Assembly: GCA_024220505.1 (NCBI GenBank)
Contig: JAKZZE010000011.1
Location: 1,736,001-1,800,000 of the forward strand
Length of the DNA stretch: 64,000 nucleotides
Reading direction: 5' to 3'
From: Rhizopus arrhizus
Taxonomy: Eukaryota; Mucoromycota; Mucoromycetes; Mucorales; Rhizopodaceae
In this document: positions 1 through 43,598 of the stretch, in pieces
How positions within the stretch are numbered: the stretch's first letter is position 1
How the letters are laid out: every line of letters starts with the position of its first letter
Position numbers and translations under genes: made by a program
The notes under the pieces: model-generated
Seen by the model: the letters and a program-made list of their open reading frames with translations, nothing else
The model's database searches: none
What the model was told of the DNA's origin: nothing

Positions 1-52
1 GGAATTTGAAAAAAATGAAAAATGACTATAAAATCAATCTGACAGCAAATCT

Positions 53-8316: not shown

Positions 8317-8317
8317 A

Positions 8318-8525: not shown

Positions 8526-8543
8526 CTTGAACATAAATTTTAT

Positions 8544-9575
8544 TTAATAACGGGTATGTCCCCCTTTAGCATTAATAAGTGCTTTACAACGATCCGGCAT
8601 GCTATCTATATATCTTCTACAGTCATCCACTGTAAAAGTATTCCATTCTTTTTCTATTTTTTCCCATAACTCATGTACTCCTTTAGTCTTAGTGTCATAT
8701 ACACTCAGCTTGAGTTTAAGGTGATGCCATACGTGTTCAATAGGGTTTAAATCGATACTTTGGGCTGGCTAGCTAAAGATATGATCACTCTTGAAGTTAT
8801 TATGCACAAACCATTGCTTAGCAAGCTTCGAAGTGTGCTTGGGATCCTTATCTTGTTGAAAATAGATGTCCTCAGGATTGTATCCATAGTACTTTAGGCT
8901 GTCCATAAGTGTAGTTTCCAAGATATTTACATAATCCACAGCTTTCATAGTTCCGTCATGTATCCAACAAGCATATCCAGGGCCATCATAAGTAATACAA
9001 CCCCATACCATGACACTTCCTTGGCCGCCTTTAACTGTAAGGTCTAAGTGATGAGGCTGCAATACATCGTCTGGTCGACTCCAGTAATACTTGCAACCGT
9101 CTGATCCGAAAACATTGACTTTAGTCTCATCACTAAACACCATACGCCTCCAGTCATCGGTTGTCCAGTCTTTGTGGGCCATAGCCCATGCTAAACGTCG
9201 TTCCTTGTGCTGTTTACTGAGCAGAGGCTTCTTCGCTTTGATTTTAGCTCTGAAGTTCATACTTTTAAGGAGCTTCAAGACTCCAGAATAACCAATAGTA
9301 TATCCCAAACCATTCAGATATTGATGTACTGCTTTGGCTGTCTTGAATTCACCCTTTATTACTTGTCTACGGATGTATGACTTGGTAGTTTCACCAATAG
9401 TTGCTCTTCTACCAGGGGTTGCCTTCATTCGGTTTGGAAAAAACTTGTTCGCATACCTACCTAAAGTTGACTTTTTCAATCCGGGAATGCGTTCCATAAC
9501 TTGTTCATATGTCATATTACTAGCCAAAAGCATTTGGATTTGTTTCTGAACAGATTTGCTGATAGTAGGAGTCAT
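8544..9575 (-). pseudogene. Tc1-like DD34E transposase, one Trp-to-stop change
   Basis: Frame of 344 codons, the same length as intact transposases at 28016 and 40404. An N-terminal helix-turn-helix (MTPTISKSVQKQIQ onward) is followed by the GRRAT linker, MVFSDETKVNVFGSDG with the first Asp, GGQGSVMVWGC, and QQDKDPKHTSK with the second Asp. The frame breaks at TAG 8769-8771, where related proteins have the Trp of SWPAQSPDLNPIE. It then reads on to LNPIEHVWHHLKL with the catalytic Glu (a Pro-Asp pair there has changed to Ile-Asp) and a normal C-terminus at 8544. A single G-to-A change explains the break. Confidence 0.9.
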
Positions 9576-9584
9576 TTGATGCGG

Positions 9585-10209: not shown

Positions 10210-10429
10210 TGAAAGATTTACCGTCCACATTTTTGCAAGCCTGTAGCGGAGCTAAAATCAAGCATATAGGCATAAGCTATACATCATTCGAAAGCTCGGA
10301 CAATTTACTCTCAGATGGTTTAACATTTATGTCCCAAAAAGGCAACTAGCGGACATTATTGAAGCAAGAAAATAGACACTATATGGCCCTGAATTGTATG
10401 GTTATCTATGAAAGTTTTATTTGTTTATT
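10210..10429. other. Non-coding end of the Merlin region
   Basis: Begins with the 21-nt sequence shared with 41706-41726. It also holds TATACATCATTCGAAAG (10278-10294), the motif found in the middle of the Tc1 termini, so part of it may be a decayed Tc1 end. I could not find an inverted motif pair here. Confidence 0.35.
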
Positions 10430-12059: not shown

Positions 12060-12137
12060 TACAGTAGCGGACAAAACTGGTGCACAAAACTTTTTTTTAG
12101 CTTTTATCTACCATTACCTGCTCATGGTAATTGCAAT

Positions 12138-14872
12138 CACTGCAAATAATTGGTGATTTTCAGCGTTATCAGTCATTTGCAGTCATTTCTAACATCAAAA
12201 TTTCAACGATTTGAACAACATTGAATAAACGAAAAAAATTAAAATGCTCTGTATTGCACCTTTTTGAATTTTGAAAAAAGATTTAGGTGCGAAAAAAATA
12301 AAGAAATTTAATAATTTTATTATTTGTTTTGTGGTGTAAGTATTCATAGAGTTATTCATGTTTTAAAAAAGTGTCTTTTTTTTTTCAAATAGTCTCTTTT
12401 TGGAAAGCCTGTTCTCCTCTATCGTTGAAAGACCGATATTTTCTTTTTTTTATTTTTGAGGGCAAAATGCGGAAAACAAAAACACATTGTGATTATTTTG
12501 ATCAAAAGAATACATATTAGGAAGGCAGTCTGTGATCTTTAGCTTAGTTCATTTGAAGCGTGTAACAGAACGTAACAAAATAGTTGCGTTTGGGAAAAAA
12601 AAGAAGCTGAAGAATTAGAAGTAAAAAAAAAAAAAGACAAAGTTTAAAAAAAAGACCTAGTAAAAAAAAAAAAAAAAAAAAAAAGAGAGCATAGCAATAA
12701 AAAGTTCCTTATTCAAATGAAAACAATAATCTAACAGTAAACACGTTTTATAAAAATACAAATGCTTTTACAATGTAACAAAAGAATATGTGTATATTCT
12801 AAAAAGAATAAAAAAAAAGAAGAAGCTTTGTTAACATCTTGTTACAAGACAATTATAATTAATAGATACAAGCACAATTTTTTTGTTTTTCAAGTAAATA
12901 GATTGCTTTATTATTTTTTTATGACAAATAATATAAAGAATATATGTTTTTAAGCTTATATTGGTTCATTACTTACTTTATGTTTGCAGATGGGTGTAAT
13001 TTGCCATTAGCCATTAGCCATTAGCCATTAGAGATGTTAACATTGCCAACTTCCTTTATCAAAAAGGGCTTTTCAACAACAAGCAGTAATATAAGTTTGA
13101 TATTCTTATAGTTTTATCGTGTTAAAACGAACAACTTTGCTCATGTGGCTCATGTTCGTCATCCGAATGTGACCCATTAGGAATTTCTAATGTAAAAAAA
13201 AAAGAACCCGACTTTAGACTTGGTTGTTATTATTATTTTTTTATAAACTTACATATGATCAATACTTGAGCATTCTTTTTTATCTTTTGTACCTTTGACA
13301 TCTAGTATATTCCATGAAACAAAACAAGGGAGAAAAAAAAAAGATATTGTTTTACTGCTATAATTTGTTAAGATACCGACTTTTTTTTTTATTTCAAGTA
13401 AAAATAAAATAAAATAAAATAATAACCTTCCTCCTAAACATATTGCATTCAAGTAATAAAACTTACTCAAGCAATGTATTAGTTATCGTTTGGGATACCA
13501 TTAAATGTAAACTATATGAAAAGCAACAGTTTTTGATTTCTAATATGGATAGACATTGAATAAGTGTAACATTGGTAAAATAAGGCTACAAAAAAGCACT
13601 TTTCTTTTTTTTTTCTTTTTTTTTCTTCTCTTTTTTATAAAAGGTAAGTTCTTAATATTATATATATTCTATTCCAGCTCTAATGGTGCTTTTACTGTAG
13701 TAAAGATGTATCGGCTGCTTTCTTTATGGTTTAAATGGTCTTTACAAAGTCTCTTTCCCAGGATTATCATTGCTTCTTCTTTTACTTATTGCTATAAGCT
13801 TAGCTAGTTTCTTCTGGGCTATCTAAAGCAAGGTACTATTACTTTTACTGCATACACTCAATAGCTAATAATTATTATAGATGCGTGCTGCTTTTTTAGT
13901 CTTTTGTATACGCTTAGCTAGTTTTCTTCCCATGGTCTATCTAAAGAAAGGTACTATTACTTTTACTACATATACACGATAGCTAATAATTGTTATAGAC
14001 GAATGCTGCTTTGCTTTGGCCTCTTCTGTCTCTTTTCTGTCTTTTTTTTGGTTCTTAGTAATGATGTCTTTTCTTTTGCTTTGATTGCCCAAGTCCTTGA
14101 ATCCTTGAATCCTTGTGTCTCTGAATCCTTGAGCTTGGCTTTTTTTTTTTTTTTTTTTTTTCTTTTTTTTCTTTTGAGAACTTTTTGAGTTCCACGAGAC
14201 TAGTTGATGTATTTTTAGATTAGATGCTGCTATTCTGGTGACATTAGGTAAGTCAAGTAAACTGCTAAAACGCTACAAGCAAAGAAATACTATGTATTGT
14301 TATTATTATTTTATTCAAATAAAAAAAAAGCTATTTTTTATAAACAAAATCCCTATTTTTTTGTATATATAAAGCAATATTTATTGCAATATGAATGGTC
14401 AATAAAGAAGTATATAAGCTATATAAGTGGTCAATAAAGAAGTATATAAAGCAATATGAGTGGTTCATAAAGAAATATATAAGGCAATATGGGTGGTCAA
14501 TAAAGAAGTATATAAGGCAATAGGAGTGGTCAATAAAGAAGTATATAAGGCAATAGGAGTGTTCGATGAAGAAGTATATAAGGCAATATGAGCGGTCGAT
14601 AAAAGAACAAAAAGACATATAAAGTAATGTTTTAAAACGTATCATTCGTTGCTCAAACGTTGACTAGTATTAATTGAAACGTAAAAAATGCTTTGGTAAA
14701 AGAACACTAAACGACCTCCTCTTGCTTGCGTAAAAGTTATTTAACGATTACTGCTCTGCCTCGAAAATCGTTTAAAAGAGCAATAAAATTCCGTGGAGTT
14801 GCGTTAAACTTCGCGTTGTTGCGCTCATTTATGCTAAAAAACTACGTTTAATATCTCCAATTATTTGCAGTG
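12138..14872. mobile_element. Internally deleted Plavaka (CACTA-like) element
   Basis: Perfect 16-bp terminal inverted repeat CACTGCAAATAATTGG at both ends, with 3-bp target duplication AAT (12135-12137, 14873-14875). Mariner A3 (31525-31545) preserves the empty site. Its left ~1.4 kb matches the right end of Plavaka B and its right ~1.3 kb matches the left end. Both genes are missing, with the deletion joint near 13.5 kb. It must be moved in trans. Confidence 0.92.
14390..14600. repeat. 33-bp minisatellite of Plavaka
   Basis: About six imperfect copies of a unit containing AAGTATATAAGGCAATATG and TGGTCAATAAAG. The same array occurs in Plavaka B at 43860-44050 and, split by a mariner, in Plavaka A. 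Confidence 0.85.
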
Positions 14873-16430
14873 AATAGTCATGAAACTGTACTAGAAGGAG
14901 GATATACTAGTCATTGTAATTTATGTATGTTCTAAGCATGACATTGTTAAAACTGAGCGATAAGCGTGCTTTAAATTTATAAAATTTTATATTTTCTAAA
15001 AACCGCAAAAGTGGCTAAAATCTTAGACTTTATATAATCATCTCATCTCTTGATATTATCGGATATTCTTCTTTGCATATGCTAATAATATGCGTGTATA
15101 TCATTTTCAGTAAAAGAACCCGGCTCTTTAACTATTCTTTTCCAAAGATCATCGACCCTTTTTGATCTAGTGTCGTATCATCATACCTTTGCCATCAATT
15201 GCCACCTGGCATGCTTAAGCGGACTTAGGCCGGGATTAGTGGCGGCTAAGCTTGTAGCACAGAAGCGCTGTTATCAAATATTGAGTTTGTGACATGCGTT
15301 GACTTGTGCCTTGTGTCATTGTCATACTGAAACGAGAGATTACGACGTTTTAGACCACTATACGCTAGGCTTTTGTGGTATGAAGTAAGCGAAATATATG
15401 TGTATACTTATGAGTTCATTATACCATCATATACTTGACACACATATTCCGGTCCTCAATATCTAATACAGCCTTAAAACATAACAGAGCAGCCAGCATG
15501 CTTCATTGTTTGATCACCGTGAAAAAATCGCTAAGGTTGCTCGACTTGCTTTCAATATTAGTGTATACTGTCTGCATCCATAATGTTCATATTTGTTTCA
15601 TTGCTAAAGATAGCAGACTTCCAGCCCTCTATAGTATACAATGGCTTGTCGTGATACCACATTCATCGCTTTTTCCGACTTATACAGCTGATGAAATTCT
15701 TCGATTCCTTACTTCCAGACTCAAAATCTAGCTTCCTACTGTGCCTTTAGACTGACAGTCTGCTAACACTGTATCTTAAGGTCCTCAAAATGTGCTGAGC
15801 ATCGGAAACTATGTGTAACGGACCTTGTCCAAGCTTTAGGTTGGTGATTGAGCTAGTAACTTTTCAGACTAAAAGCGGGAGACCTTCATGATCACAAGAC
15901 ATTAAGTTTCTTTCTTCCCTCTTTCTCCTGTTGATTGTCCATTTAGAGATTCTTGTTACTCTAGGAATATCTGCTGTCGTACGAACTAAGTGTATTCGAG
16001 ATCTCAGAGTTTCATTTTTACAGTTGCTTATTTTCTTAAACATATAAGGCTAGTACTTTGTTATAGTGAATAGGGTAAAAACAAAAGGGGGGCTCAATGG
16101 GAAATACAAAATAAGTACAGTTTTATATATTTTTTATGAGCTACTAGAATTTACTAATCTGCTGTGAAATCTGAAAGCAAACGGGAGAGATTTGGGGAAA
16201 ATTGAAAGAAGGCTAGACAAGCACTACATTTTTGGCGAAAATTGAAATATGCAAAAAATCACTAAAAATGACCTTATGCCTGAGGGATGTCCGGCACAGT
16301 TCCGGTTTACATAACGTAATGTATATTTTAGACTGTCTTTCAGATGGTATATACCACAAAAGTCGCAGACATATGGCGGAGATACAATGTTAATTTTAAG
16401 TTTTGTGCACCAGTTTTGTCCGCTACTGTA

Positions 16431-20364: not shown

Positions 20365-23300
20365 ATGAACAACATCAACAACATTAAAATCGCTTGCACT
20401 TGTACCGAATGCAGCATGCATCCCGGTGGATTTAGAAGACTCGCAAAGAGAACTGTTCTTACTCATAAGCGTCTGGACAGATTCAGAGGAAGAGGTTATA
20501 GTTTTTATTTTTTCGTATAAACGCACTCGTGTTAATGTAAAAAAAAAAAAAAAAAAAAAATAGAGTCTAGAAGACAAGTAGCCGAAGTCATGCAACAACC
20601 AACAGCCGTCCCTGAAAACGAAAGTGAGCATACCACCTTTGAAGGTATATTTTCAGTCGACAAAACATTTTACATTAGAAAGGATTTATTTATTGAACTG
20701 TATTTTACAATTTGTTAGACCACATGAATGTTGATGGAGAGGAGGAATTGAGCCACGAAGAACAGCTCAAGCATCTTTTGGTGCTCTACGTGGTTCTTTT
20801 TCAAGCAAAGTACCTCTCTGTACAAGCTGGTGAGGAATTGTTGGCCTTTCTCTCTTTCTTTGTTCGTGCTCTTGGCCATGACATGGAGATACCAACAAAG
20901 ATCTCCACGGCTCGTGTCATGGTCAACTACTCGTCTGCCAGCAGTGGTGTTTCTCGTTTTCTTGTCTGTTCCCTTTGCAGAAGCGTTTACACCACGGGAA
21001 GTTTGCATGCCCGACAATGCTCTTATGTCAGGTTTGCAAACAACCCTCACCGCCAAGAACAACCATGTGGTAATCCTCTTTTTGTTGGAAGCACCGTCAA
21101 GCCTGCTCTTGAGTACCCTTACAACTCAATTTTGGAAACGTTAAAGAAGTTTTTTGCTCGTCCTGCCTTCGAGTTCCAAATTGAGTAGTGGAGAAGTAGA
21201 TCGGTGGAAGAGGATGTTCTTTACGACATCTATGATGGTAGAGTTTGGAGTCAGCTTGCCGACTCAAATGCTCAGCCATTTGTCAACAAAGAAAGGTCGT
21301 TGATGGTGTCGTTGAATGTGGACTGGTTTCAGCCTAGTGACGGTATGCACTATTCTTGTGGTGGTGTGTACCTCACTATCAACAATCTCCCAAGAAGTTC
21401 AAGGATGAAGACTTCCAACGTTATTCTTGTTGGTATGATTCCTGGTCCTGGCGAGCCCACGGATGACCAAATTCAAAACTTCTTGCGGCCAATGGTGGAT
21501 GAGTTGATTGTCCTGTACGATGGTGTGGTTATACCCACCTATCAATGCCCAAATGGTGTGCTTGTTCGTGTTGCTTTAATGTCAGTCAATTGCGACATAC
21601 AGTAGCGGACAAAACTGGTGCACAAAACTTAAAATTAACATTGTATCTCCGCCATATGTCTGCGACTTTTGTGGTATATACCATCTGAAAGACAGTCTAA
21701 AATATACATTACGTTATGTAAACCGGAACTGTGCCGGACATCCCTCAGGCATAAGGTCATTTTTAGTGATTTTTTGCATATTTCAATTTTCGCCAAAAAT
21801 GTAGTGCTTGTCTAGCCTTCTTTCAATTTTCCCCAAATCTCTCCCGTTTGCTTTCAGATTTCACAGCAGATTAGTAAATTCTAGTAGCTCTTAAAAATAT
21901 ATAAAACTGTACTTATTTTGTATTTCCCATTGAGCCCCCCCTTTTGTTTTTACCCTATTCACTATAACAAAGTACTAGCCTTATATGTTTAAGAAAATAA
22001 GCAACTGTAAAAATGAAACTCTGAGATCTCGAATACACTTAGTTCGTACGACAGCAGATATTCCTAGAGTAACAAGAATCTCTAAATGGACAATCAACAG
22101 GAGAAAGAGGGAAGAAAGAAACTTAATGTCTTGTGATCATGAAGGTCTCCCGCTTTTAGTCTGAAAAGTTACTAGCTCAATCACCAACCTAAAGCTTGGA
22201 CAAGGTCCGCTACACACAGTTCCTGATGCTCAGCACATTTTGAGGACCTTAAGATACAGTGTTAGCAGACTGTCAGTCTAAAGGCACAGTAGGAAGCTAG
22301 ATTTTGAGTCTGGAAGTAAGGAATCGAAGAATTTCATCAGCTGTATAAGTCGGAAAAAGCGATGAATGTGGTATCACGACAAGCCATTGTATACTATAGA
22401 GGGCTGGAAGTCTGCTATCTTTAGCAATGAAACAAATATGAACATTATGGATGCAGACAGTATACACTAATATTGAAAGCAAGTCGAGCAACCTTAGCGA
22501 TTTTTTCACGGTGATCAAACAATGAAGCATGCTGGCTGCTCTGTTATGTTTTAAGGCTGTATTAGATATTGAGGACCAGAATATGTGTGTCAGGTATACG
22601 ATGGTATAATGAACTCATAAATATACACATATATTTCGCTTACTTCATACCACAAAAGCCTAGCGTATAGTAGTCTAAAACGTCGTAATCTCTCGTTTCA
22701 GTATGACAATGACACAAGGCACAAGTCAACGCATGTCACAAACTCAATATTTGATAACAGCGCTTCTGTGCTACAAGTTTAGCCGCCACTAATCCCGGCC
22801 TAAGTCCGCTTAAGCATGCCAGGTGGCAATTGATGGCAAAGGTATGATGATACGACACTAGATCAAAAAGGGTCGATGATCTTTGGAAAAGAATAGTTAA
22901 AGAGCCGGGTTCTTTTACTGAAAATGATATACACGCATATTATTAGCATATGCAAAGAAGAACATCCGATGATATCAAGAGATGAGATGATTATATAAAT
23001 TCTAAGGTCTTAGCCACTTTTGCGGTTTTTAGAAAATATAAAATTTTATAAATTTAAAACACGCTCATCGCTCAGTTTTAACACTGTCATGCTTAGAACA
23101 TACATAAATTACAATGACTAGTATATCCTCCTTCTAGTACAGTTTCATGACTATTGCAACTACCATGAGCAGGTAATGGTAGTTAAAAGCTGAAAAAAAG
23201 TTTTGTGCACCAGTTTTGTCCGCTACTGTACCTGCAGCGCGTAAAGTAGCCGGGTTTATGGGGCAGTCAGCTCATAAGGCTTGTAACAAATGCTCAACTG

Positions 23301-26372: not shown

Positions 26373-27629
26373 TTTTTAAAATAAAGTATAAAGAAGAAGA
26401 AAAAAGAAGAATGTGCTACATTGTTTTTATATTCTTCAGTTTATTTTGTACTCTTTTTTTTTTAAAAAAAAACGAAAAAAAAAAACACTATTAGGGTTGA
26501 AGATGTTAAATTTAAATAAAGAATAAGTCTAACAATATATAAACAAGCTTTTTGAATATTTTAATAGCTGAACTATGTTAAAAAATGCAGTTGAAACGAG
26601 CTTTCATGGTTATTAGAATTTACTGATACTGAATAATTGTAACACTTGTAAAATGAAGCTATAAAAAAAGTACTTTTTTTCCCTTTTTTTTTTCCTTTTT
26701 TTTTTAAAAAAAAATCATTTCTGAAAGGTAAGTTCTTAATATTATATATACTATATTATTGCTCTAATGGTACTTGTACTTTAGTAAAGTTGTGTTGGTT
26801 GCTTTCTTTATAGTTTAAATTGTCTTTATAAAGTCTTTTTCCCAGGATTATAGTTGCTTCTTCTTTTACTTGTTGGTATAAGCTTGGCTGGTGTCTTTTT
26901 TTCTTCTTTTATCTCGTGGTTCGTCTAAAGCAAGGTACTATTACTTTTACTACATACTCCATAACTAATATTTATTATAGATGCGTTCTGCTTCCTTTTT
27001 TTTTACTTGTTGGTAAAGCTTAGCAAGGTTTTTCTCTTAGCCCATCTAAAGAAAGGTACTATTACTTTTATTACATATCCTTCATAGCTAATAATTATTA
27101 TAGATGTCTGCTGCTTTTTTTACTTGTGAGTATACGCTTAGCTAGTTTTTTTCCCATGGTCTATCTAAAGAAAGGTACTGTTGCTTTTATTATATATACA
27201 CGATATTTAACATCTATTGTAGATGAATGTTGCTCTGCTTTGGTCTCTTTCTGTTTCTTTCCTGGCTTTTACTTTGGTTCTTAAGTACTGATGTATTTCC
27301 TTCTTTTGCTTTAATTACCCAGGTCCTTGTGCCTTTGAGTCCTTGTGTCTTTGAATCCTTGAGCTTGGCTTTTTTTTTTTTTTTTTCTTTTGAGAACTTT
27401 TTGAGTTCCACGAGACTAGTTGATGTATTTTTAGATTAGATGCTGCTATTCTGGTGACATTAGGTAAGTCAAGCACACTGTTAAAATGCTACAAGCAAAG
27501 AAATACTATGTATTGTTATTATTATTTTATTCAAATAAAAAAAAGCTATTTTTTATAAACAAAATCCCTATTTTTTTGTATATATAAAGCAATATTTATT
27601 GCAATATGAATGGTCGATAAAGAAGTATA
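26373..27629. other. Right subterminal region of Plavaka A
   Basis: AT-rich, no gene. It contains several variant copies of a block with AAAGGTACTATTACTTTTA and TAGCTAATAATTATTATAGA, matching 13.6-14.2 kb and 44.4-45.0 kb, so it is a subterminal repeat array of the element. The first minisatellite unit is at its end. Confidence 0.6.
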
Positions 27630-27840
27630 CAGTGGCTCACAAAATTGTACAAGTGTTTTGCATTTTTTGCTTCAGTAGGATTTATCGACACTAAAACGAT
27701 AAATAAGCTACAGCATGTTATACATCATTCGAAAGTATAGCTTCTTGACGTTTTGCTAATATTATTTAGTCGGCGATAAAATCAGTTTTGATGGAGTTAT
27801 GACCGTTTACAAATGCCGACTACACTTGTACAATTTTGGG
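27630..27840. repeat. Left terminus of F1 with inverted motif pair
   Basis: Outer motif CACAAAATTGTACAAGTG (27638-27655) and inverted inner copy CACTTGTACAATTTTGGG (27823-27840). TATACATCATTCGAAAG at 27719-27735 lies between. Confidence 0.9.
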
Positions 27841-28015
27841 ACCGTTTCAAATATTTCAATATCAGCTTATAATCTTGCTCGTCACAACGCGTAAGCCACC
27901 AGAAAAGATTTTTTTTTATTCTTCAATGCTCAAAGTATGTTTTTCTTTCCTTTTTTGCCATTTTACTTACATCTACAGGAGCTAACTGCTATATAAAAGT
28001 GTACCAACGTCCAAT

Positions 28016-29047
28016 ATGCAACCTATCAGTGAAGATCTCCGTAATCGTATCATCAGCTGCTTAAAAAGCGGATACTCTATATCAAAAACAGTAAAAATAA
28101 CTGGAGCAAGCCGTGGAACTGTTCAGAATGTTCGAAAAACAATAAAAAACGAAGTAAAGAGCATTAAAGCAGGTCGCCCCAAGTTACTCAGCAGCAGGGA
28201 TGATCAGTATTTAGTCCGATTGGTAACTGTTAAAGGTCAAGAGAATGCAGTAGAAGCCAGAAACACACTTGAGAATGACTTGCAAAAGATTGTATTAGCT
28301 GAAACAGTTCGAAGATCGTTGCGTAGGTCTGGTTTAACCTCTTTTGTGAAGCCTCAAAAACCATTGCTCAGTGAAGTAAACAGACGAAAGCGATTGGACT
28401 GGGCTCTTAATCACGTTGACCGGACCATAGAAGACTGGAAACGCGTGATTTGGTCTGATGAGACTAAAGTTAATCGTTTTGGATCGGATGGTAAGCTTTA
28501 TGCTTGGAAACAACCAAATGAGAAGCTTAAAAGAAGGCATGTAAAGCAAACCGTAAAACATGGTGGAGGCTCACTTATGGTTTGGAGCTGTATTAGCTGG
28601 TACGGGGTTGGGTATATTGTCGACGTAGGCAAGAATATGGACAAGAGTGTCTATTTATCTGTATTGCAAGATGATTTGGTGAAGTCTATGACCGACTATT
28701 GTAAAGAAAATGGCCTGAGAATGACTGATTTTGAATTTATGCAAGATAACGATCCGAAGCATAAGTCCAAAATCGTATCTGAATGGCTGTCTAAACAGGA
28801 TTTTACAACAATGGAGTGGCCTCCACAGTCTCCAGACTTAAATCCAATTGAAAATATCTGGAATACCTTAAAAAAACGCTTGTCTAAGCAGTACGATTTT
28901 CCTCCTATCTCTATGGATGAACTATGGACTCGTACGTTCGAGAATTGGTACGAAATTACCGAAAAAGAATGTCAAATTTATATTGAAACTATGCCTCAAC
29001 GATGTATTGACATTATAGAAAATAAGGGTCTTTGGATCAGCTATTAG
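28016..29047 (+). CDS. Tc1-like DD34E transposase, intact (F1)
   Basis: 343 residues, full length for the group. An N-terminal helix-turn-helix region (about 1-55, MQPISEDLRNRII onward) is followed by the GRPK linker at about 63 and a second helical DNA-binding part to about 115. The catalytic triad is Asp148 in IWSDETKVNRFGSDG, Asp244 in MQDNDPKH and Glu279 in SPDLNPIENIW, a spacing of 34. The GGGSLMVW motif is present. It would bind the F1 termini and move the element into TA dinucleotides. The ATG aligns with that of the F2 protein (MQPxxED). No lesion is seen. It sits between the two ~211-bp termini with no other gene. Confidence 0.95.
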   Translation: MQPISEDLRNRIISCLKSGYSISKTVKITGASRGTVQNVRKTIKNEVKSIKAGRPKLLSSRDDQYLVRLVTVKGQENAVEARNTLENDLQKIVLAETVRRSLRRSGLTSFVKPQKPLLSEVNRRKRLDWALNHVDRTIEDWKRVIWSDETKVNRFGSDGKLYAWKQPNEKLKRRHVKQTVKHGGGSLMVWSCISWYGVGYIVDVGKNMDKSVYLSVLQDDLVKSMTDYCKENGLRMTDFEFMQDNDPKHKSKIVSEWLSKQDFTTMEWPPQSPDLNPIENIWNTLKKRLSKQYDFPPISMDELWTRTFENWYEITEKECQIYIETMPQRCIDIIENKGLWISY

Positions 29048-29087
29048 CGCACACTTTTAAATAAAAACCTTATTGTAAAACATCGGT

Positions 29088-29298
29088 CCCAAAATTGTAC
29101 AAGTGTAGTCGGCATTTGTAAACGGTCATAACTCCATCAAAACTGATTTTATCGCCGACTAAATAATATTAGCAAAACGCCAAGAAGCTATACTTTCGAA
29201 TGATGTATAACATGCTGTAGCTTATTTATCGTTTTAGTGTCGATAAATCCTACTGAAGCAAAAAATGCAAAACACTTGTACAATTTTGTGAGCCACTG
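29088..29298. repeat. Right terminus of F1 with inverted motif pair
   Basis: Inner motif CCCAAAATTGTACAAGTG at 29088-29105 and outer CACTTGTACAATTTTGTG at 29273-29290. This mirrors the left end with the same 203-bp span. Confidence 0.9.
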
Positions 29299-29732
29299 TA
29301 TAAAGCAATATAAGTGGTTTATAAAGAAATATATAAGGCAATATGAGTGGTTCATAAAGAAGTATATAAGGCAATATGAGTGGTTTATAAAGAGCAAAAA
29401 GACAAATAAAGTAATGATTTAAAAAGTATCATTGGTTGCCAAATTATGTATAACGTAGAATAGACTATGTAAAGCAGCTAACAAGAGAGACGCCTTCGCA
29501 GAACGACAATTGGGTCTGTATAAATCTACTTAGAGCTATGGATCATCATTTTCGTTAATATCGGCACCATACAGAGATGCAGAATATATTGACAGACATT
29601 TAGGTCCTTAAAGGGTGCCGATATTGACGTCGGCATAAATACCCATTCAATCACAGCTTTTGGCATCGTTAAACAGAAAAGCATATTGCTAAAAATTACC
29701 AGTGTGCAGAGTTTGCACGATTATTTGCAGTG
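29299..29732. other. Right end of Plavaka A
   Basis: Two further minisatellite units, then ~330 bp unlike the corresponding end of copy B, finishing ATTATTTGCAGTG. No gene. Confidence 0.6.
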
Positions 29733-30113: not shown

Positions 30114-30115
30114 TA

Positions 30116-30817
30116 CAGTGCCCCACAAAACCCTTCAAGTGTTTTGTTTTTTTTCGTTTTTTGCTTGTCATTAAGTATTGCGTATCACAATTGGTAGCAT
30201 GCTATACCTCATTTGAAAGCTACGATAACAGAGTACTTGGACAATGTTTATACTCCGATGCACATGTAATGACCGCGGAGTAATGGCATTTTAAAAACAG
30301 ACACACACTTGAAGGGTTTTGTGGAATTTAAAAAATCTCAAATTAATGTCGTAAAAATCATTCTAAACGTCACAAAAGTGAGGCTTATTAATTTTTTGTG
30401 TAAAAGTTTTTACTTATGTACAACTTTCTATACTTTTTTTGCCTTTTTTTTATAACATAATCTAATTAAGTGACATGCGACCAATTAGCAATGACATGCA
30501 GAACAGGATCGTTCAACTTCTTAAAGAAGGAGTTTCTGGAGAAGAAATATGAACAAAGGCTGGTGTCAGTACTGGAACTATTTCAAAAATTCGAAAAAAC
30601 CATGATTTGGGAGATTTGAAAACTAATGGAGGCAGGCCATTCCTAATCTCGACATTACTAGGTCGTCGAATCTTGCGAAATTTCAACTCTGGCAATTACA
30701 AAAATGCTTTAGGCGCTGCTAGAAAGCTGTTAGAAGATGGCGAAAATATTAGTGCTGAGACTATAAGGCATTTTTTAAAAGACTCAGGTTATGCAGCAAT
30801 TCATAAGCCTAAAGTCC
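30116..30817 (+). mobile_element. Tc1-like element F4, truncated
   Basis: Starts CAGTGCCCCACAAAACCC after TA. The terminus spans 30116-30324 with outer CCACAAAACCCTTCAAGTG (30123-30141) and inverted inner copy (30306-30324). The transposase is interrupted by element F5 at the TA 30818-30819. No F4 sequence is recognisable beyond F5. Confidence 0.85.
30475..30817 (+). pseudogene. Tc1-like transposase N-terminus (F4), stop and truncation
   Basis: From ATG 30475 (MRPISNDMQNRIVQLL) the frame resembles the helix-turn-helix half of the F1 protein. A TGA at 30550-30552 falls inside the first DNA-binding region (GEEI-stop-TKAGVSTGT). The frame stays open to NGGRPFLIS, AETIRHFLKDSGY and HKPKV, where F5 is inserted. 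The DDE half is missing. It is inactive. Confidence 0.85.
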
Positions 30818-31043
30818 TACAGTGAGTTAAAAAACCGTTTCAGTAAAATTGAAACTCACACATTTATCCTTTTTTTGAAAGAAATATTTGGAGTATACGT
30901 GTTCTTTTTTATTATGTTATTATATGGCTTTTTTGCAACAAAGCAATGTACATCTCATCTTAATCTATGAACTACATCTTAAGCAATGGCCATTTTAAAA
31001 AAAGGGGATGACTGAAACGGTTTTTTAACTAGGTAAAAAAATA

Positions 31044-33696
31044 CTAATATATAGTATTTCCACCCTTAGCTTTTATTACAGCTTGAACTCTAGCCGGCAT
31101 ACTATCAATATATTTACAGCAAATATCTTCATCAAATGTTTCCCATTCAATTTTGATTCTTTCCCATAGTTCATGGACACCTCTTGCTCTTTGTTCATAT
31201 AAAGCTAATTTCAACTTTAAGTGTCTCCACATGTGCTCAATTGGGTTCAGGTCAGGCGATTGAGAAGGCCAAGGCAATACTGGGTACTTTGCTTCTTCTT
31301 TAAGATGAGTCGTCGTTATCTTGGCAGTGTGTTTCGGGTCATTATCGTGCTGAAAGATGAAATCACCATCTCCTAATCGGTAGTAACCAAGGGTATCTGC
31401 CAGTTCGGTTTTTAGGATATGGATGTAATCGGATGCAGTCATTCTGCCGTCGTATACAGTAGCGGACAAAACTGGTGCACAAAACTTTTTTTCTGCTTTT
31501 AACTACCATTACCTGCTCATGGTAATTGCAATAGTCATGAAACTGTACTAGAAGGAGGATATACTAGTCATTGTAGTTTATGTATGTTCTAAGCATGACA
31601 TTGTTAAAACTGAGCGATAAGCGTGCTTTAAATTTATAAAATTTTATATTTTCTAAAAACCGCAAAAGTGGCTAAGACCTTAGACTTTATATAATCATCT
31701 CATCTCTTGATATCATCAGATGTTCTTCTTTGCATATGCTAATAACATGCGTGTATACCATTTTCAATAAAAGAACCCGGCTCTTTAACTACTCTTTTCC
31801 AAAGATCATCGACCCTTTTTGATCTAGTGTCGTATCATCATACCTTTGCCATCAATTGCCACCTGGTATGCTTAAGCGGACTTAGACCGGGATTAGTGGC
31901 GGCTAAACTTGTAGCACAGAAGCGCGGTTATCAAATATTGAGTTTGTGACATGCGTCGACTTGTGCCTTCTGTCATTGTCATACTGAAACGAGAGATTAC
32001 GACGTTTTAGACCACTATACGCTAGGCTTTTGTGGTATGAAGTAAGCGAAATATATGTGTATATTTATGAGTTCATTATACCATCATATACTTGACACAC
32101 ATATTCCGGTCCTCAATATCTAATACAGCCTTAAAACATAACATAGCAGCCAGCATGCTTCATTGTTTGATCACCGTGAAAAAATCGCTCAGGTTGCTCG
32201 ACTTGCTTTCAATATTAGTGTATACTATCTGCATCCATAATGTTCATAATTGTTTCATTGCTAAAGATAGCAGACTTCCAGCCCTCTATTGTATACAATG
32301 GCTTGTCGTGATACCACATTCATCGCTTTTTCCGGCTAATACAGCTGATGAAATTCTTCGATTCCTTACTTCCAGACTCAAAATCTAGCTTCCTACAGTG
32401 CCTTCAGACTGACAATTTGCTAATACTGTATCTTAAGGTCCCTCAAAATGTGCTGAGCATCGGAAACTATGTGTAACGGACCTTGTCCAAGCTTTAGGTT
32501 GGTGATTGAGCTAGTAACTTTTCAGACTAAAAGCGGGAGACCTTCATGATCACAAGACATTAAGTTTCTTTCTTCCCTCTTTCTCCTGTTGATTGTCCAT
32601 TTAGAGATTCTTGTTATTCTAGAAATATCTGTTGTCGTACGAACTAAGTGTATTCGAGATCTCAGAGTTTCGTTTTTACAGTTGCTTACTTTCTTAAACA
32701 TATAAGGCTAGTACTTTGTTATAGTGAATAGGGTAAAAACAAAAGGGGGGATTCAATGGGAATTACAAAATAACTACGGTTTTATATATTTTTTAAGAGC
32801 TACTAAAATTCACTAATATGTGGTGAAATCTGAAAGCAAACGGGAGAGATATGGGGAAAATTGAAAGAAGGCTAGACAAGCACCACATTTTTGGCGAAAA
32901 TTGAAACATGCAAAAAATCACTAAAAATGACCTTATGCCTGGGGGATATCCGGTACAGTTCCGGTTTACATAACATAATGTATATTTTGGACTGTCTTTC
33001 AGATGGTATATGCCACAAAAGTCGCAGACATATGGCGGAGATACAATGTTAATTTTAATTTTTGTGCACCAGTTTTGTCCGCTACTGTATCTCGTAGATA
33101 TATCCAACTCCATGAGAAGTCATACAAGCCCACACCATAACACTTCCACCGCCGTGTTTTACGGTTGGGATTACATGATGAGGCTGTAATGGGCTTCCAG
33201 GCAGACTCCAATAGAATTCAACTCCATCCGAGCCCCAAACGTTGATTTTCGACTTGTCAAAGATAACCTTCCTCCATTCGTCAATAGTCCAGTACCTGTG
33301 AGCAAGTGCCCATTCTAAGCGTGCTTTCCTGTGTTTTGCTGACAAAAGTGGTACCTTTCTTTTTGGTCGGGCTTTGAATCCTAGGCTCTTTAAGGCGTTT
33401 AGAGTGGTGTTGTAAGTCAACCTTGGATAAATGGCCTTAAAATAATCGAAGACCTCAACACCTGACTTCAATCGTCCTAAGATTACCATTCTCTTCATGA
33501 GGGACTTGCTTGCTTCAGTTAAAATCTGAGGTCGTCCGCCAGTGTTATCAGGTCTTTGGATATTCCATTTTTTGCAATATCGATGAACAGTAGCTTTAGA
33601 GAGAGTCAAGCGATTAGCAATCTCTTCATAAGACAAATCAGACTCTAAGAGCACTCTCAAATCATTTTGAGTATCTTGGGAAATGGAGCGAGTCAT
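31044..33696 (-). pseudogene. Tc1-like DD34E transposase (F5) interrupted by mariner A3
   Basis: From ATG 33696 (MTRSISQDTQNDLR) the protein runs through a helix-turn-helix, a GGRPQ linker, a first Asp region (VIFDKSKINVWGSDG, where the usual SDE is DKS, so the acidic neighbour of the catalytic Asp is changed) and GGGSVMVWAC. It breaks at GVGYIYE, where A3 is inserted at a TA. The rest continues at 31454 with YDGRMTASDY, QHDNDPKHTAK with the second Asp and SPDLNPIEHMW with the Glu, ending at 31044. Without A3 the frame is 339 residues with no stop. The insertion alone inactivates it. Confidence 0.9.
31457..33087 (-). mobile_element. Non-autonomous mariner A3
   Basis: 1631 bp with the family A ends, TA at 31455-31456 and 33088-33089. 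It carries the same decayed transposase as A1, A2 and A4. It is inserted in the F5 transposase and keeps the unoccupied Plavaka target site (GCAATAGTCATG). Confidence 0.92.
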
Positions 33697-34138
33697 TTGT
33701 AAGAAAGATTGGGTTGAAAATGTAAAATGAAAAAGTATGAAATTTGTTACGCGTCTATTAATAAAATAACGTGTTTATATACTTGTTTTTTTAATAAATG
33801 CAAAGTATTACACTCTTCCCCTAATTTTATGTGTATTGCATAAATGAAAAATGAAGTCTGCATAATTGTAATTGGTATTTATGTTTTTTTTAATGGAGTT
33901 AAAAAACCGTTTCAGTGCACCGACTGTAGTAATTTTATAAGTTTTAGGGAGCAAATATTAAAAAAGCAATACTATTTTTATATTGTACTATACATCAGAA
34001 CTAGAGCTTTCATATGATGTATGAAATGTAGAATTTTATTTAGTATATCAGTAGTTATGGTAGCAAAACCATATTTAGGAAGAACACTGAAACGGTTTTT
34101 TAACTCACTGTATATGCACTTTTGCTTCCTTAATTAGC

Positions 34139-34433
34139 TTATGTGATATCAAAGCTCTGGCGAATGCATACCCTAAAATAAAAAGATATGAAGACAAATT
34201 GAACAGAGGTCGCTCATATTTTTTCACCTACTGTATCATTTCTTACTCCTGCCATCAAAATGGTCACCGATCCTTTGAGTGTCCTCGTAAAAATATGTCG
34301 ATAAACGCATGCAAAAAGAGGGATCGTAAGTCTTATCAAACATCCCTACCAGCTCCCTCCTTGTCTTTTGACCAAACGGCAACCATCCCATACACTGATG
34401 ATTTCGAATACCAAGAAGAGCGCGGCGAAGATA
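34139..34433 (+). pseudogene. Fragment with CCHC-like zinc knuckle (gag-like)
   Basis: Open frame with IKALANAYPKIKRYEDKLNR and then YSCHQNGHRSFECPRK, resembling a zinc knuckle (Cys-His-Gln-x-Gly-His-x4-Cys-Pro) of a retroelement Gag or LINE ORF1. It is cut by element F5 on the left and by the solo terminus unit on the right. The first Cys is uncertain. It is not a working gene. Confidence 0.4.
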
Positions 34434-34642
34434 CAGTGGGTGGACTAATTGTCCCAGTGTTTCAACATTTTTTACTTTTGACACTGTAACTCGACCAATT
34501 CTTAGGCTATGTGACTAGTTTTATGCTCATTAGAAAGGTCGCACTTTGTGCTACATAATATCAAAGAGCCAGAGTTCGGAGATTACACAGTCTGAGTTAA
34601 TCAGCAATAGAAAAAAAAACCGCACTGGGACAATTTTTCCGC
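34434..34642. mobile_element. Solo 209-bp F6-type terminus, MITE-like
   Basis: Nearly identical to the F6 terminus 8318-8525: CAGTGGGTGG start, AATTGTCCCAGTG, CATTAGAAAG, CACTGGGACAATT, then CCGC. It is flanked by TA on both sides (34432-34433, 34643-34644). No transposase is attached. Confidence 0.75.
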
Positions 34643-34644
34643 TA

Positions 34645-34843
34645 CCTGCTTATTTTGCAATGTGTTCTAAACATCGCCTACTTATCGATCATAAATCACC
34701 GGAACTAATATACCAGTCTTATATATGATAATCTATGACTCATATCTTTAATGTAAAGTATAAAAAGCTTTACGTTTTTCTTTTTTTTTTTACAATATTC
34801 TTAGTCTCTTTCTATACTGCACTTCTTACGACTTTGTCCCGCA
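34645..34843. other. AT-rich spacer before gypsy 2
   Basis: Nothing recognised in this ~200-bp stretch. CCGCA (34839-34843) directly before the LTR would be the target duplication, but the 3' copy is missing. Confidence 0.4.
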
Positions 34844-35238
34844 TGTGGTATTTATACATATAATAAAGTAATACTGTAAATTACTACGAACAATGATCAT
34901 CCAAATTAGGAATATCGGACATTGTATTATGCCACGTCAAATAAAATCATATCCCGATCCACTCCAGAATATTCTAACGAGTTCCTGAATCAGGATTAAT
35001 AATTACTTCTTGATAAAAGATGTTAAACAATACCAATCATATAATTAACGCATCGTCTAATATCGATTAATAATCAATAATCATGTACTGTGAATACTAT
35101 TATTTAGCCGTGGATAGAAAAGTATAAATACCCTCATATTTTTAACTTGAATAAAGGATAATCTACTTTGAGTCTCACTTATTTTTATATTTGTTGATTG
35201 ACTTAGTACTTTTTTATATATAAACCCTAAATATCACA
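34844..35238 (+). repeat. 5' LTR of gypsy 2
   Basis: 395 bp, TGTGGTAT to TATCACA, the same family as 9585-9979. TATAAATA lies at 35123-35130. Confidence 0.93.
35123..35130 (+). promoter_or_regulatory. TATA box in the gypsy 2 LTR
   Basis: TATAAATA about 110 bp before the LTR end, in a similar position to that of gypsy 1. Confidence 0.55.
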
Positions 35239-38200: not shown

Positions 38201-40017
38201 CTCCAACAGCCATTCTTTGTTGCAACTGATGCTTCAAATTACGGTATTGGTGCTGTGCTATATCAAGAACAAGTGGAGTTGACATCTAATGTTGATTCTA
38301 CAGATGTAGCTAAAAACGATAATGTTTTAAAGAACAAAGGAAAGAAAAAGACCACGATAAAATATATTGGTTTCATGGCACGTTCTCTTTCCAAGTCCGA
38401 GAGAAATTATAGTACCACGAAGAGAGAACTTTTAGCAATCGTATTTGCACTCAAAAAGTTTCATAAATTTTTATGGGGTAATCCTTTTACACTTTATACG
38501 GATCATAAAGCTCTGACTTATCTTCATACACAAAAATATGCAAATACCATGATGATGAATTGGTTTGATACCATTCTCGATTACCAATTTAAGGTAATTC
38601 ATCTTCCTGGTATGGATAACATATTACCTGACCATTTATCTCGCCTTTTCCCTACGGATCAAATGCTGAGGGGGAGTGAACAGGATACTAGAGCTAAAAA
38701 TGGCATTATACATACAGCAATAAGAGCTATAAGATCAAATAATCATAAAAAATTCACAGTAAAAAAACCTGCACAACATAAGCAGTGTGACTATATGACT
38801 CCTCCTGAAAATGAAAGGAAGCAACTGATGTTAAGGGCTCACCTAATGGGTCACTTTGGTGCTGAAAATATAGTAAAAGTATTACATAATGACGGATTGC
38901 ACTGGAAAAACATGATAGTCGACGCAGTCGAACTTGTTAAATCATGTGTTGCTTGTCAAAAGCATAATACAACCAGAAAAGGGTATCATCCTCTAAGACC
39001 AGTATACTCATATCTACCTGGTGATCACTGGTCAATGGATTTAGCTGAATTACCCACAACTCCGAATGACAATAAATACTTATTAGTGCTATTAGACATA
39101 TGCACACGATTCTGTATTCTAAGGTGTTTACCAAATAAGAAAGCCAAAACTATTGCTGGAACTCTTGTTCAAGTTTTTAGTGACTTTGGTTACCCACGTA
39201 TTTTACAATCAGACAACGGAACCGAATTTAAAAATGTCACAATGAAACTGTTAACTGAAAGTACAGGCATAGATCACAGACTTATCTCACCTTATCATCC
39301 GCAAGCAAATGGCAGTGCGGAAAGATGGGTTAAGACTGCTAAGGTTGCTATTGCTAAATCAGTACAAGGAACAGGACAAGACTGGGACTTTTATGTACCT
39401 AGTGTACAGTTATTTATAAATAACAAAGTATCTAAAAGACTCAACACTCCACCTTTTTCTTTGATGTTTGCGAGAAAAATGAACGGATTCGAAGATTACC
39501 GAAAAAAGGATCCTAAGAAAGCCGTACCGCTCTCATACGAAGAATTGTTGGAAAGAATTGATCATATGAATCAAGTAGTCTTCCCAGCCATTAAAGATAA
39601 AACTGACAAGTATGTTGAAAACATGAAAAAGCAGTTTGAAAAGCATAACACAATAGTTGATGACTTCAAAGAAGGAAGTCATGTCATGGCTAAAGTTCCT
39701 ACTATGACTGGTTCATTAAATCCTGTATATGATGGCCCATACACAGTGATTCGTAAAACCAGAGGTGGATCCTACGTGCTCCAGGACGAAATGGGATTAC
39801 TAATGTCTCGAGACTATACTCCTTCCGAATTAAAACCAATTGATCTGCATAATATAAATGAGGACAATGAAGAGGTTTATGAAATCGAAGGAATCGTAGA
39901 TCACAGAGGCAGCGGTAATAACAGAGAGTTCAAAGTACGTTGGAAAGGGTATAGTAAGGATGAAGACTCATGGCTTACGCCTGATAAAATCACTCATACC
40001 TCTACCATTGAGAACTA

Positions 40018-40231
40018 CAGTGGCCAGCAAAACCGTTCGCACAAAACGTATTTTTTTCTTTCTACGCCTTTTACGACATAATACCTCCATTACGCGCTAC
40101 CTATAATACATATTGCCTCAAAGTACAAACTCTTGGCTTTCTAATGACGTATAATATGTCACCCTACACGCACCCTAACCAGTACTACGGACAATCAAAA
40201 CTCAAAGGTACATTCGAACGGTTTTGCGGCC
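40018..40231. repeat. Left terminus of F2 with inverted motif pair
   Basis: Outer and inverted inner motifs as above. GGCTTTCTAATGACGTATAA (40135-40154) between them is the shared central motif on the other strand. Confidence 0.9.
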
Positions 40232-40403
40232 ATGTTTTACGTGTTGGTCGATTGCGGTAAACGCAGTCACTGCACCCTCCAATCCTTCCAGAACTTTCGC
40301 TGCTTACTAATTCATCACTGCGCATTATTTTTCTACTTTTTTTCTTTTGTCATTCATACATTCTCATTTCGACATCTCGACATCTACCAAGTCATTACCC
40401 AAC

Positions 40404-41435
40404 ATGCAACCATTGACAGAAGATCGCAAGAACACCATTGAGTTTTACCTTCGTCAAGGCTTTTCTTATCACAAAATTGCAAAGATAGTCAAAGTATCAT
40501 CATCTACTGTTCATAAGATTCGCTTAGAATTAGGTTTGCCTGCTAGAAATGACAAGGGTGGCAGACCAAAAGCGCTCACTAAACGTGAGCAGCAACATCT
40601 CGTTCGCGCTGTAACAGCAGATGGACTCAAAAACGCTGTACAAGCACAGCAGTCGTTGGAGCAGAACCTGGGCAAGTCAGTTTCTGTAGATACCGTACGT
40701 AGGGCATTAAAAGATGCTGATTTGGTCTCGTTTGTCAAGCCAAAGAAACCTTTAATCAATGAAAGAAATAGAAAGAGGAGGCTCCAATGGGCTCGTCAGC
40801 ACATTGACTGGACAATAAACGATTGGATGAACGTCATATGGTCTGACGAAACCAAAGTCAACCGTTTTGGATCCGACGGAAAGTCTTATGCATGGGAAGT
40901 GTCAGGTAAACCGTTAAAAAAGCATCAGGTTCGTGAGACAGTGAAGCATGGAGGAGGTTTTATAATGGTATGGAGCTGTATTAGCTGGTATGGCCCAGGC
41001 TATATTGTGGATGTGGGCAAGTGCATGACAAAGTATGTCTATTTGGAGGTTTTACAAGATGATTTGATAAAGTCTTTGGCTTGGTATATGGAAGAAAGTG
41101 GAAAATCTACCAATCAATTCATCTTTATGCAGGACAACGACCCCAAACATACAGCTAAAGTCGTATCAAAATGGCTAAACGAGCAAGGATTTCATGTAAT
41201 GAAATGGCCACCACAATCACCGGACTTAAACCCAATCGAAAACATGTGGCAATTGCGTAAAAGACGGTTGTTTAGGAACTATGACTGTCCTCCATGCGGT
41301 ATACATGAGCTATGGGACCGTATAGGACATACTTGGTACCAAATCACAGCTGAAGGATGCCGAACGTTTATTAAAAGTATGCCAGAGCGATGCCGTGCAG
41401 TTATTGAGGCTGATGGCCTTTATATTGGATATTAA
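40404..41435 (+). CDS. Tc1-like DD34E transposase, intact (F2)
   Basis: 343 residues from ATG 40404 (MQPLTEDRKNTIEF), chosen because it aligns with the F1 start. The frame stays open upstream to 40347, which lies close to the terminus. Helix-turn-helix (SYHKIAKIVKVSSSTVHKIR), GGRPK linker, VSVDTVRRALKDADL, catalytic Asp148 in IWSDETKVNRFGSDG, GGGFIMVW, Asp244 in MQDNDPKHTAK and Glu279 in SPDLNPIENMW. It is the closest relative in the window of the F1 protein, yet the termini of the two elements have unrelated motifs, so binding specificity must differ. No lesion seen. Confidence 0.95.
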   Translation: MQPLTEDRKNTIEFYLRQGFSYHKIAKIVKVSSSTVHKIRLELGLPARNDKGGRPKALTKREQQHLVRAVTADGLKNAVQAQQSLEQNLGKSVSVDTVRRALKDADLVSFVKPKKPLINERNRKRRLQWARQHIDWTINDWMNVIWSDETKVNRFGSDGKSYAWEVSGKPLKKHQVRETVKHGGGFIMVWSCISWYGPGYIVDVGKCMTKYVYLEVLQDDLIKSLAWYMEESGKSTNQFIFMQDNDPKHTAKVVSKWLNEQGFHVMKWPPQSPDLNPIENMWQLRKRRLFRNYDCPPCGIHELWDRIGHTWYQITAEGCRTFIKSMPERCRAVIEADGLYIGY

Positions 41436-41473
41436 ATAAATCTATTTTAGCACATTTTGATTTCAAAACATAT

Positions 41474-41687
41474 GGCCGCAAAACCGTTCGAATGTACCTT
41501 TGAGTTTTGATTGTCCGTAGTACTGGTTAGGGTGCGTGTAGGGTGACATATTATACGTCATTAGAAAGCCAAGAGTTTGTACTTTGAGGCAATATGTATT
41601 ATAGGTAGCGCGTAATGGAGGTATTATGTCGTAAAAGGCGTAGAAAGAAAAAAATACGTTTTGTGCGAACGGTTTTGCTGGCCACTG
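41474..41687. repeat. Right terminus of F2 with inverted motif pair
   Basis: Inner GGCCGCAAAACCGTTCG at 41474-41490 and outer CGAACGGTTTTGCTGGCC at 41666-41683, mirroring the left terminus. Confidence 0.9.
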
Positions 41688-41705
41688 TATATGAAAAGGG
41701 ATCTG

Positions 41706-42050: not shown

Positions 42051-42052
42051 TA

Positions 42053-43598
42053 CAGTAGCGGACAAAACTGGTGCACAAAAATTAAAATCAACATTGTATC
42101 TCCGCCATATGTCTGCGACTTTTGTGGCATATACCATCTGGAAGACAGTCCAAAATATATATTATGTTATGTAAACCGGAACTGTACCGGACATCCCCCA
42201 GGCATAAGGTCATTTTTAGTGATTTTTTGCATATTTCAATTTTCGCCAAAAATGTGATGCTTGCCTAGCCTTCTTTCAATTTTCCCCATATCTCTCCCGT
42301 TTGCTTTCAGATTTCACCACATATTAGTGAATTTTAGTAGCTCTTAAAAAATATATAAAACCGTAGTTATTTTGTAATTCCCATTGAATCCCCCCTTTTG
42401 TTTTTACCCTATTCACTATAACAAAGTACTAGCCTTATATGTTTAAGAAAGTAAGCAACTGTAAAAACGAAACTCTGAGATCTCGAATACACTTAGTTCG
42501 TACGACAACAGATATTTCTAGAATAACAAGAATCTCTAAATGGACAATCAACAGGAGAAAGAGGGAAGAAAGAAACTTAATGTCTTGTGATCATGAAGGT
42601 CTCCCGCTTTTAGTCTGAAAAGTTACTAGCTCAATCACCAACCTAAAGCTTGGACAAGGTCCGTTACACACAGTTTCCGATGCTCAGCACATTTTGAGGA
42701 CCTTAAGATACAGTATTAGCAAATTGTCAGTCTGAAGGCACTGTAGGAAGCTAGATTTTGAGTCTGGAAGTAAGGAATCGAAGAATTTCATCAGCTGTAT
42801 TAGCCGGAAAAAGCGATGAATGTGGTATCACGACAAGCCATTGTATACAATAGAGGGCTGGAAGTCTGCTATGTTTAGCAATGAAACAAATATGAACATT
42901 ATGGATGCAGATAGTATACACTAATATTGAAAGCAACCTGAGCGATTTTTTCACGGTGATCAAACAATGAAGCATGCTGGCTGCTATGTTACTTTTTAAG
43001 GCTGTATTAGATATTGAGGACCGGAATATGTGTGTCAAGTATATGATGGTATAATGAACTCATAAATATACACATATATTTCGCTTACTTCATACCACAA
43101 AAGCCTAGCGTATAGTGGTCTAAAACGTCGTAATCTCTCGTTTCACTATGACAATGATACAAGGCACAAGTCGACGCATGTCATAAACTCAATATTTAAT
43201 AACAGCGCTTCTGTGCTACAAGTTTAGCCGCCACTAATCCCGGCCTAAGTCCGCTTAAGCATGCCAGGTGGCAATTGATGGCAAAGGTATGATGATACGA
43301 CACTAGATCAAAAAGGGTCGATGATCTTTGGAAAAGAGTAGTTAAAGAGCCGGGTTCTTTTATTGAAAATGGTATACACGCATGTTATTAGCATATGCAA
43401 AGAAGAACATCTGATGATATCAAGAGATGAGATGATTATATAACGTCTAAGGTCTTAGCCACTTTTGCGGTTTTTAGAAAATATAAAATTTTATAAATTT
43501 AAAGCACGCTTATCGCTCAGTTTTAACAATGTCATGCTTAGAACATACATAAATTACAATGACTAGTATATCCTCCTTCTAGTACAGTTTCATGACTA
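42053..43598 (+). mobile_element. Non-autonomous mariner A4, truncated by Plavaka B
   Basis: Starts CAGTAGCGGACAAAACTGG after TA (42051-42052) and follows A2 to within ~80 bp of the right end, where Plavaka B begins. The last ~80 bp and the right TA do not reappear beyond Plavaka B. It has the same decayed transposase as the other A copies. Confidence 0.9.

Follow-up and report, generated by a model that had tools for sequence, protein, structure and literature searches.

Termini of Tc1 transposons in 13 families of Rhizopus arrhizus form a module of about 220 bp, in which a 20-bp site near the tip is matched by an inverted copy of itself further in, and the dyad axis between the two lies 110–112 bp from the tip T in every one of these families. 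This geometry hints that an end may loop back on itself before being cut. Our starting point was a window of 64,000 nucleotides (contig JAKZZE010000011.1, positions 1,736,001 to 1,800,000), in which an earlier note had labelled the families F1–F6; the labels F7 (window 1–1445) and fA–fH were assigned in this analysis. Positions within termini are numbered from the T of TACAGT, with the outer site at bases 9–28.

Complete elements F1, F2 and F3 were each seen as inverted repeats of 219–223 bp by a whole-window repeat search. F1 (27628–29300, plus strand, including both TAs; transposase ORF 28016–29047) has its left outer site at 27636–27655 (plus) and the left inner inverted site at 27823–27842 (minus), which match at 18 of 20 bases, with the right inner inverted site at 29086–29105 (plus) and the right outer site at 29273–29292 (minus). 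F2 (40016–41689, plus strand; transposase ORF 40404–41435) carries outer and inner inverted sites at 40024–40043 (plus) and 40211–40230 (minus) on the left, matching at 15 of 20 bases with 13 bp exact, and its right inner inverted and outer sites at 41475–41494 (plus) and 41662–41681 (minus). In F3 (56593–58255, minus strand), outer sites at 56601–56620 and 58228–58247 accompany inner inverted sites at 56785–56804 and 58044–58063, with 17 of 20 bases matching. F2 apparently lies in a gypsy-like polyprotein ORF (38375–40081, which runs into F2), towards its 3′ end, and F3 apparently lies within a LINE-like ORF, flanked by its parts at 55764–56423 and 58127–60829.

The same arrangement was found in interrupted and truncated copies. 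F5 (30818–34112, minus strand) is split by an inserted element at 31455–33089; its outer sites (30826–30845 and 34085–34104) match its inner inverted sites (31010–31029 and 33898–33917) at 19 and 20 of 20 bases. The termini listed by the earlier note for F4 and F6 hold, both elements being truncated: F4 (30114–30820, plus strand) retains only its left end, with an outer site at 30122–30141 and an inner inverted site at 30306–30325 (19 of 20), and F6 (8316–9584, minus strand) retains one terminus, with an outer site at 8324–8343 and an inner inverted site at 8507–8526, of which 13 bp are exact at 8507–8519. Missing from that list was a second F6 terminus at 34432–34844 (plus strand), with an outer site at 34440–34459 and an inner inverted copy from 34623. 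The element inside F5 is of the fH kind, as are those at 12060–16430, 21598–23230 and 42051–43593; these have a 33-bp tip, TACAGTAGCGGACAAAACTGGTGC, no inverted pair, and 73–75% identity to locus L075.

The earlier note had described one inverted, rather than direct, pair per terminus, and we found this in all ten termini that it cited and in all 26 of a representative set made up of one element from each of the 13 families. Taking the best ungapped match between the outer and inner half of each cited terminus, inverted scores were 13–22, and for no terminus did any of 200 dinucleotide shuffles score as high, whereas direct matches were at best 6–9, the shuffle level. In the 26 representative termini the inner site, an inverted copy of the outer site running from 192–196 to 211–215, was always the best inverted match within bases 46–500 (15–20 of 20 identical), and the best direct match reached only 10–14 of 20. 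The score within a terminus exceeded the best match in other families' termini for 23 of the 26 and tied for three, namely both ends of F3, whose tie is with its sibling, and the right end of fE. Chance or base composition as the source of the pair is ruled out by the shuffles together with this control. Folding the F1 end as a single strand restates the inverted pair and nothing more.

The repeated unit coincides with the outer site itself. Outer and inner copies agree at positions 10–27 in 12–14 of 14 compared termini and at the edge positions 9 and 28 in 9 and 11; outside the block, agreement is confined to 0–4 termini at positions 5–7 and 2–6 at positions 29–37, with position 8 agreeing in 6 and positions 1, 4 and the T-rich 38–40 in 8–10. 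The TACAGT tip was absent from all 14 inner copies compared. Because the block is repeated but TACAGT is missing, the inner copy looks like a recognition block without a cleavage tip. Each outer site is best matched by the inner site of its own family (13 of 13 families, F3 tied with its sibling fC), which bears out the family specificity of the motifs; they do not, as had been claimed, differ completely, since the sites share a loose pattern, with mean identity of 90% between an outer site and its own inner site and 58% to those of other families.

Spacing is kept too, although the loose 203–215 bp given previously is not the conserved quantity, which is instead the position of the axis. Real tip and virtual inner tip are about 219–223 bp apart, and the DNA between the sites differs among families while the axis stays. 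In both directions, of number of families and of tightness of spacing, the pattern goes beyond what the earlier note claimed. Among 39 two-ended elements representing 12 families, all 78 termini carry the inverted pair with its axis within 109–113, a count set apart from six two-ended fG, F7, fH and L013 elements, an F4 copy and loci without a tip pair. For the 10 families whose ORFs are near-complete, the standard deviation of the span is 1.5 bp, compared with 13.8 for the interval between stop codon and inner site (Levene p 0.0004 versus the span) and 29 for that between inner site and start codon (p 0.04), the last value being inflated by one misassigned start.

Copies within one family tell the same story. 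The earlier note had taken genomic copies that lack the inner motif, or that place it at random spacing, as evidence against its proposal; genome-wide, 88 exact first-20-base tips of fC were found, of which 78 have an exact inner copy (two of these pairs stem from one mini-element), with spans of 212–215 bp in counts of 11, 61, 5 and 1 even though 199–228 bp was allowed, and reversed-pattern controls gave 0. For the other 10 tips no exact inner copy was found within 199–228 bp. In one fC copy (L059) a TACAG lies two bases off the inner register, which we take to be chance.

The sites persist while the DNA between them drifts, as seen in fB1 versus fB2 and in the two ends of F5 and of fE. Between fB1 and fB2, outer and inner sites are 90% and 91% identical and bases 109–140 only 28%; the left and right termini of F5 share little besides their sites, as previously noted (95% and 86% at the sites, 25–46% over bases 29–190), and fE behaves alike (outer 100%, inner 91%, between 36–59%). 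The contrast is weaker between F1 and an old relative, L041 (95% and 91%, between 62–94%), and for F3 versus fC the inner stretch scores just 41% in a simple alignment. We also considered copying of one end onto the other and rejected it, because such copying works between ends and not within one, and because fE and F5 keep their sites where the remainder of the terminus differs.

To place these families we searched the genome (50.3 Mb, 41 contigs) with the F2, F6, F5 and F7 transposases, with F1 and F4 DNA, and with one Pfam search for DDE_3, which gave 1749 first-look candidates, 150 of which were scored; the sample comprised 40 loci picked for diversity, one random stretch (L042), the old F1 relative and one F4 copy. 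Since families were found through window transposases or DNA and one Pfam search, more distant Tc1 groups are under-sampled. The pair-bearing families are F1–F6, fA, fB1, fB2, fC, fD, fE and fF; three related families, fG, F7 and fH, have no pair within the first 500 bp of either end (six termini), their best inverted matches being 10–12 of 20 and located elsewhere. These three count against an absolute requirement for the inverted pair. A TACAG scan of the Pfam loci gave near-tip direct repeats in L011, L013, L018, L024 and L028 among weaker rows at chance level. The L013-type family resembles the pair-bearing families in its Tc1-like tips and DDE_3 match, but is more distant and has a direct 32-bp repeat 90 bp apart in its end, with no inverted pair at 220 bp. 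Viral contigs scanned for relatives gave 97 pattern matches, none of them confirmed.

The transposases are ordinary Tc1 proteins, and we saw nothing in them that explains the turned site. PF01498 is present in all six proteins tested and PF13358 in F1, F2 and F3, with none in F6 at threshold; the F5 and F7 protein pieces end before that region. Sequence matches in the PDB include the Sleeping Beauty catalytic domain (E 1e-45) and the Tc3 DNA-binding domain (0.0016); for the predicted fold (pLDDT 85, pTM 0.62), the closest matches were Sleeping Beauty and Mos1. The best match of the F2 transposase is a metagenome protein, its nearest named homologues being from Rhizopus delemar and R. arrhizus. 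The elements, which were partly selected by their TACAG tips, have TA flanks and end in TACAGT. The catalytic spacing is 34 in fA, fB1 and fB2 and, counted by eye, in F1; 35 in fE, fF, F7 and fH; and 37 in F3, fC and fD (our script returned none for F2, F4, F5, F6 and fG), so that pair-bearing families span DD34E, DD35E and DD37E. The two-site design is kept in at least 13 families and across three catalytic spacings while the recognition word is rewritten.

Contrary to the description of the families as unrelated, their transposases align as one Tc1 group. On a tree of 16 proteins, built without an outgroup and including three partial rows and a long F4 branch, the pair occurs on both sides of a deep split with 100/99 support; fG stands beside fE and fF, F7 groups with fH, and the fewest changes that account for the pair are two. 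On the plain reading, the pair would have been lost in fG and in F7/fH. An AU test against a single pair-bearing clade was marginal (p 0.045), and clustering of the pair label on the tree was not significant, since 63 of 500 label shuffles required no more changes.

A further motif, like TATACmTCATTnGAAAG, lies near the axis at about positions 90–108 in F1 (left end, TATACATCATTCGAAAG, 27719–27735, plus strand), F4 (30203–30219), F5 right, fA, fB1, fB2 and fD; only 2–4 of 427 null windows score as high, and two of the high-scoring ones are probably explained by a lone exact copy at 10278–10295 of the window (TATACATCATTCGAAAGC), which has no Tc1 tip within 140 bp upstream. In F6 the motif is shifted by one base and weak by score (47–56 of 427 null windows as high), and in F2 it is flipped relative to the other families, at 122–138 (left end, 40137–40153, minus strand). 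Scored against the same 427 null windows, it was not seen in fC, fE, fF, F3 or F5 left; the pair-less families fG and fH do carry it, at the right and the left end respectively (4 of 427). The exact form has 73 genome occurrences, with a control of 0. The motif is possibly a host-factor site or part of a promoter.

Assembly of Tc1/mariner ends is known chiefly from one-site ends, as in Mos1, and direct-repeat ends, as in Sleeping Beauty, and Tc3 has a second internal site. The ~220-bp ends of Sleeping Beauty carry two direct sites each, all four sites are needed, assembly is ordered, and the element needs about 300 bp between its ends (PMC7827188); Bari ends carry three direct repeats (PMC4120734). 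The Rhizopus elements share with these IR/DR transposons a Tc1 transposase, ends of ~220–250 bp and multiple sites per end, but the sites there are direct and the second Rhizopus site is inverted (PMC7827188, PMC4120734), so the contrast drawn in the earlier note stands. Set against the definition of the IR/DR group (Sleeping Beauty, Minos, Bari), the module has the expected two sites in an end of ~200–250 bp, but where at least two sites per end should be direct repeats, all 26 representative termini have the second one inverted. The RED subdomain of Sleeping Beauty touches only the outer sites, whereas here the entire block 9–28 is repeated.

Among Mucorales, RdTc1 and RoTc1 of Rhizopus delemar/R. 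oryzae (1671 and 1672 bp, 211-bp TIRs, a 343-aa transposase, 167 and 177 copies) fit the present elements in length, TIR and protein (PMC5630946). The same 2016 table gives TIRs of 216 and 218 bp for MraTc1 and CreTc1 from Mucor ramosissimus and Cokeromyces and 33–126 bp for other entries; the accessible part of that paper lists TIR lengths, with no inner site, orientation or spacing (PMC5630946). Tc1-MP1 of Mucor piriformis is likewise a Mucorales Tc1 element (DD34E), but it has a 434-aa transposase and 141-bp TIRs, and direct or subterminal repeats are not mentioned in the available text (PMC9977792). The inverted pair was not described in the literature searched, which left out most subscription papers. 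What was already known is the 211-bp TIR of Rhizopus Tc1 elements (PMC5630946); what appears to be new is a two-site Tc1 end with an inverted second site.

From the sites, their orientation, spacing and family matching and the missing inner tip, we infer transposase binding, a loop and a role for it, be that an assembly aid or a brake. The reading we favour, which is quite plausible though well short of secure, is that the transposase would bridge the two sites of a single end, forming a phased loop that serves as an assembly intermediate or checkpoint. Each ~220-bp end would then act as a symmetric two-site module, with both 20-bp sites recognized by the paired-type DNA-binding domain of the element's own transposase and cutting possible only at the outer site, sole bearer of the TACAGT tip. 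With the inner site inverted and its distance nearly constant, transposase molecules bound to the two sites of an end could come together over a phased loop of about 180 bp, oriented relative to each other as the left and right tips are in the final paired-end complex. Most likely the looped end would be an intermediate or a checkpoint, which left–right synapsis later replaces or joins. The fixed span could partly be inheritance, since the families are related. A tentative and rather doubtful extension is that these elements represent a third kind of Tc1 transpososome, whose ends would self-close via head-to-head transposase sites separated by ~17 helical turns, possibly with a host factor at the central motif inside the loop, with the final complex arising by exchange between looped ends.

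The same geometry would suit a brake, in which transposase bound at the inner site would pair with the outer site of that end, forming a dead-end complex that limits transposition; sequence cannot separate this from bridging as an aid to assembly. The absence of a cleavable tip from the inner recognition block fits such a role, because pairing within one end could not excise, and so does the existence of related families without the pair. There is also a precedent of sorts in piggyBat, where an internal transposase site in the transposon end alters and restricts activity, although it belongs to another superfamily, its left-end repeats are mostly direct and the inhibition there was measured (PMC11707139). 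A brake would be costly to the element and frequent loss would be expected, yet of 16 families compared, 13 retain the pair, and we regard this role as unlikely. Alternatively, the inner site could be a plain second binding site, a local transposase store or a means of repressing the transposase promoter, with no bridging and a spacing that is simply inherited. Multiple sites per end are usual among Tc1 elements, the families share ancestry, and binding of the Bari3 transposase lowers left-end promoter activity (PMC4120734). But the span is far less variable than the neighbouring intervals, the orientation is constant in 26 of 26 representative termini, and promoter control leaves the right end unexplained, given that fE and F5 keep the site there though the remaining terminus differs; on these grounds the plain second site also seems improbable.

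Mini-elements raise a different origin for the pair. A genome-wide search for two tips 208–237 bp apart found four loci and none for the reversed control pattern: solo elements of fA (221 bp, L083), fC (221 bp, L084), F5 (224 bp, L085) and F4 (220 bp, L086), each a single terminus of its own family, 92–97% identical over 211–217 bases and ending on the inner side in a true tip (the last 7–9 bases). Such 220–224 bp elements might be taken as the ancestral form of a terminus, a full element being a composite of two whose inner tips decayed. Except for those last bases, however, they closely resemble the present termini of their own families, and there is one exact locus per family; deletion from the left inner to the right outer site is a simple explanation, because these two sites are direct repeats in the full element. 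Decay of tips also leaves the kept inner recognition block unexplained, and we consider a composite origin very improbable. One exact locus per family does not imply that mini-elements are mobile. Tips of the fH type lie on either side of the fA mini-element (L083, 1489–1733), indicating elements nested at TA sites.

A turned second site at a nearly fixed spacing makes orientation and helical phase directly testable, and the 13 families offer family-specific pairs of transposase and site, for which the related pair-less families serve as controls. If the loop is true, it would add a control step in a transposon family widely used for gene delivery.

Two smaller observations concern individual families. 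The fA termini (L046) carry GGTAGCTCAGTGGTAG about 120–140 bp from each tip, which we take to resemble a tRNA A box; ARAGORN found no tRNA in this stretch. On contig G000:C28, at about 440736–505561, six F4 ends recur at ~12.6-kb steps, a pattern that a tandem array with an F4 insertion would give.
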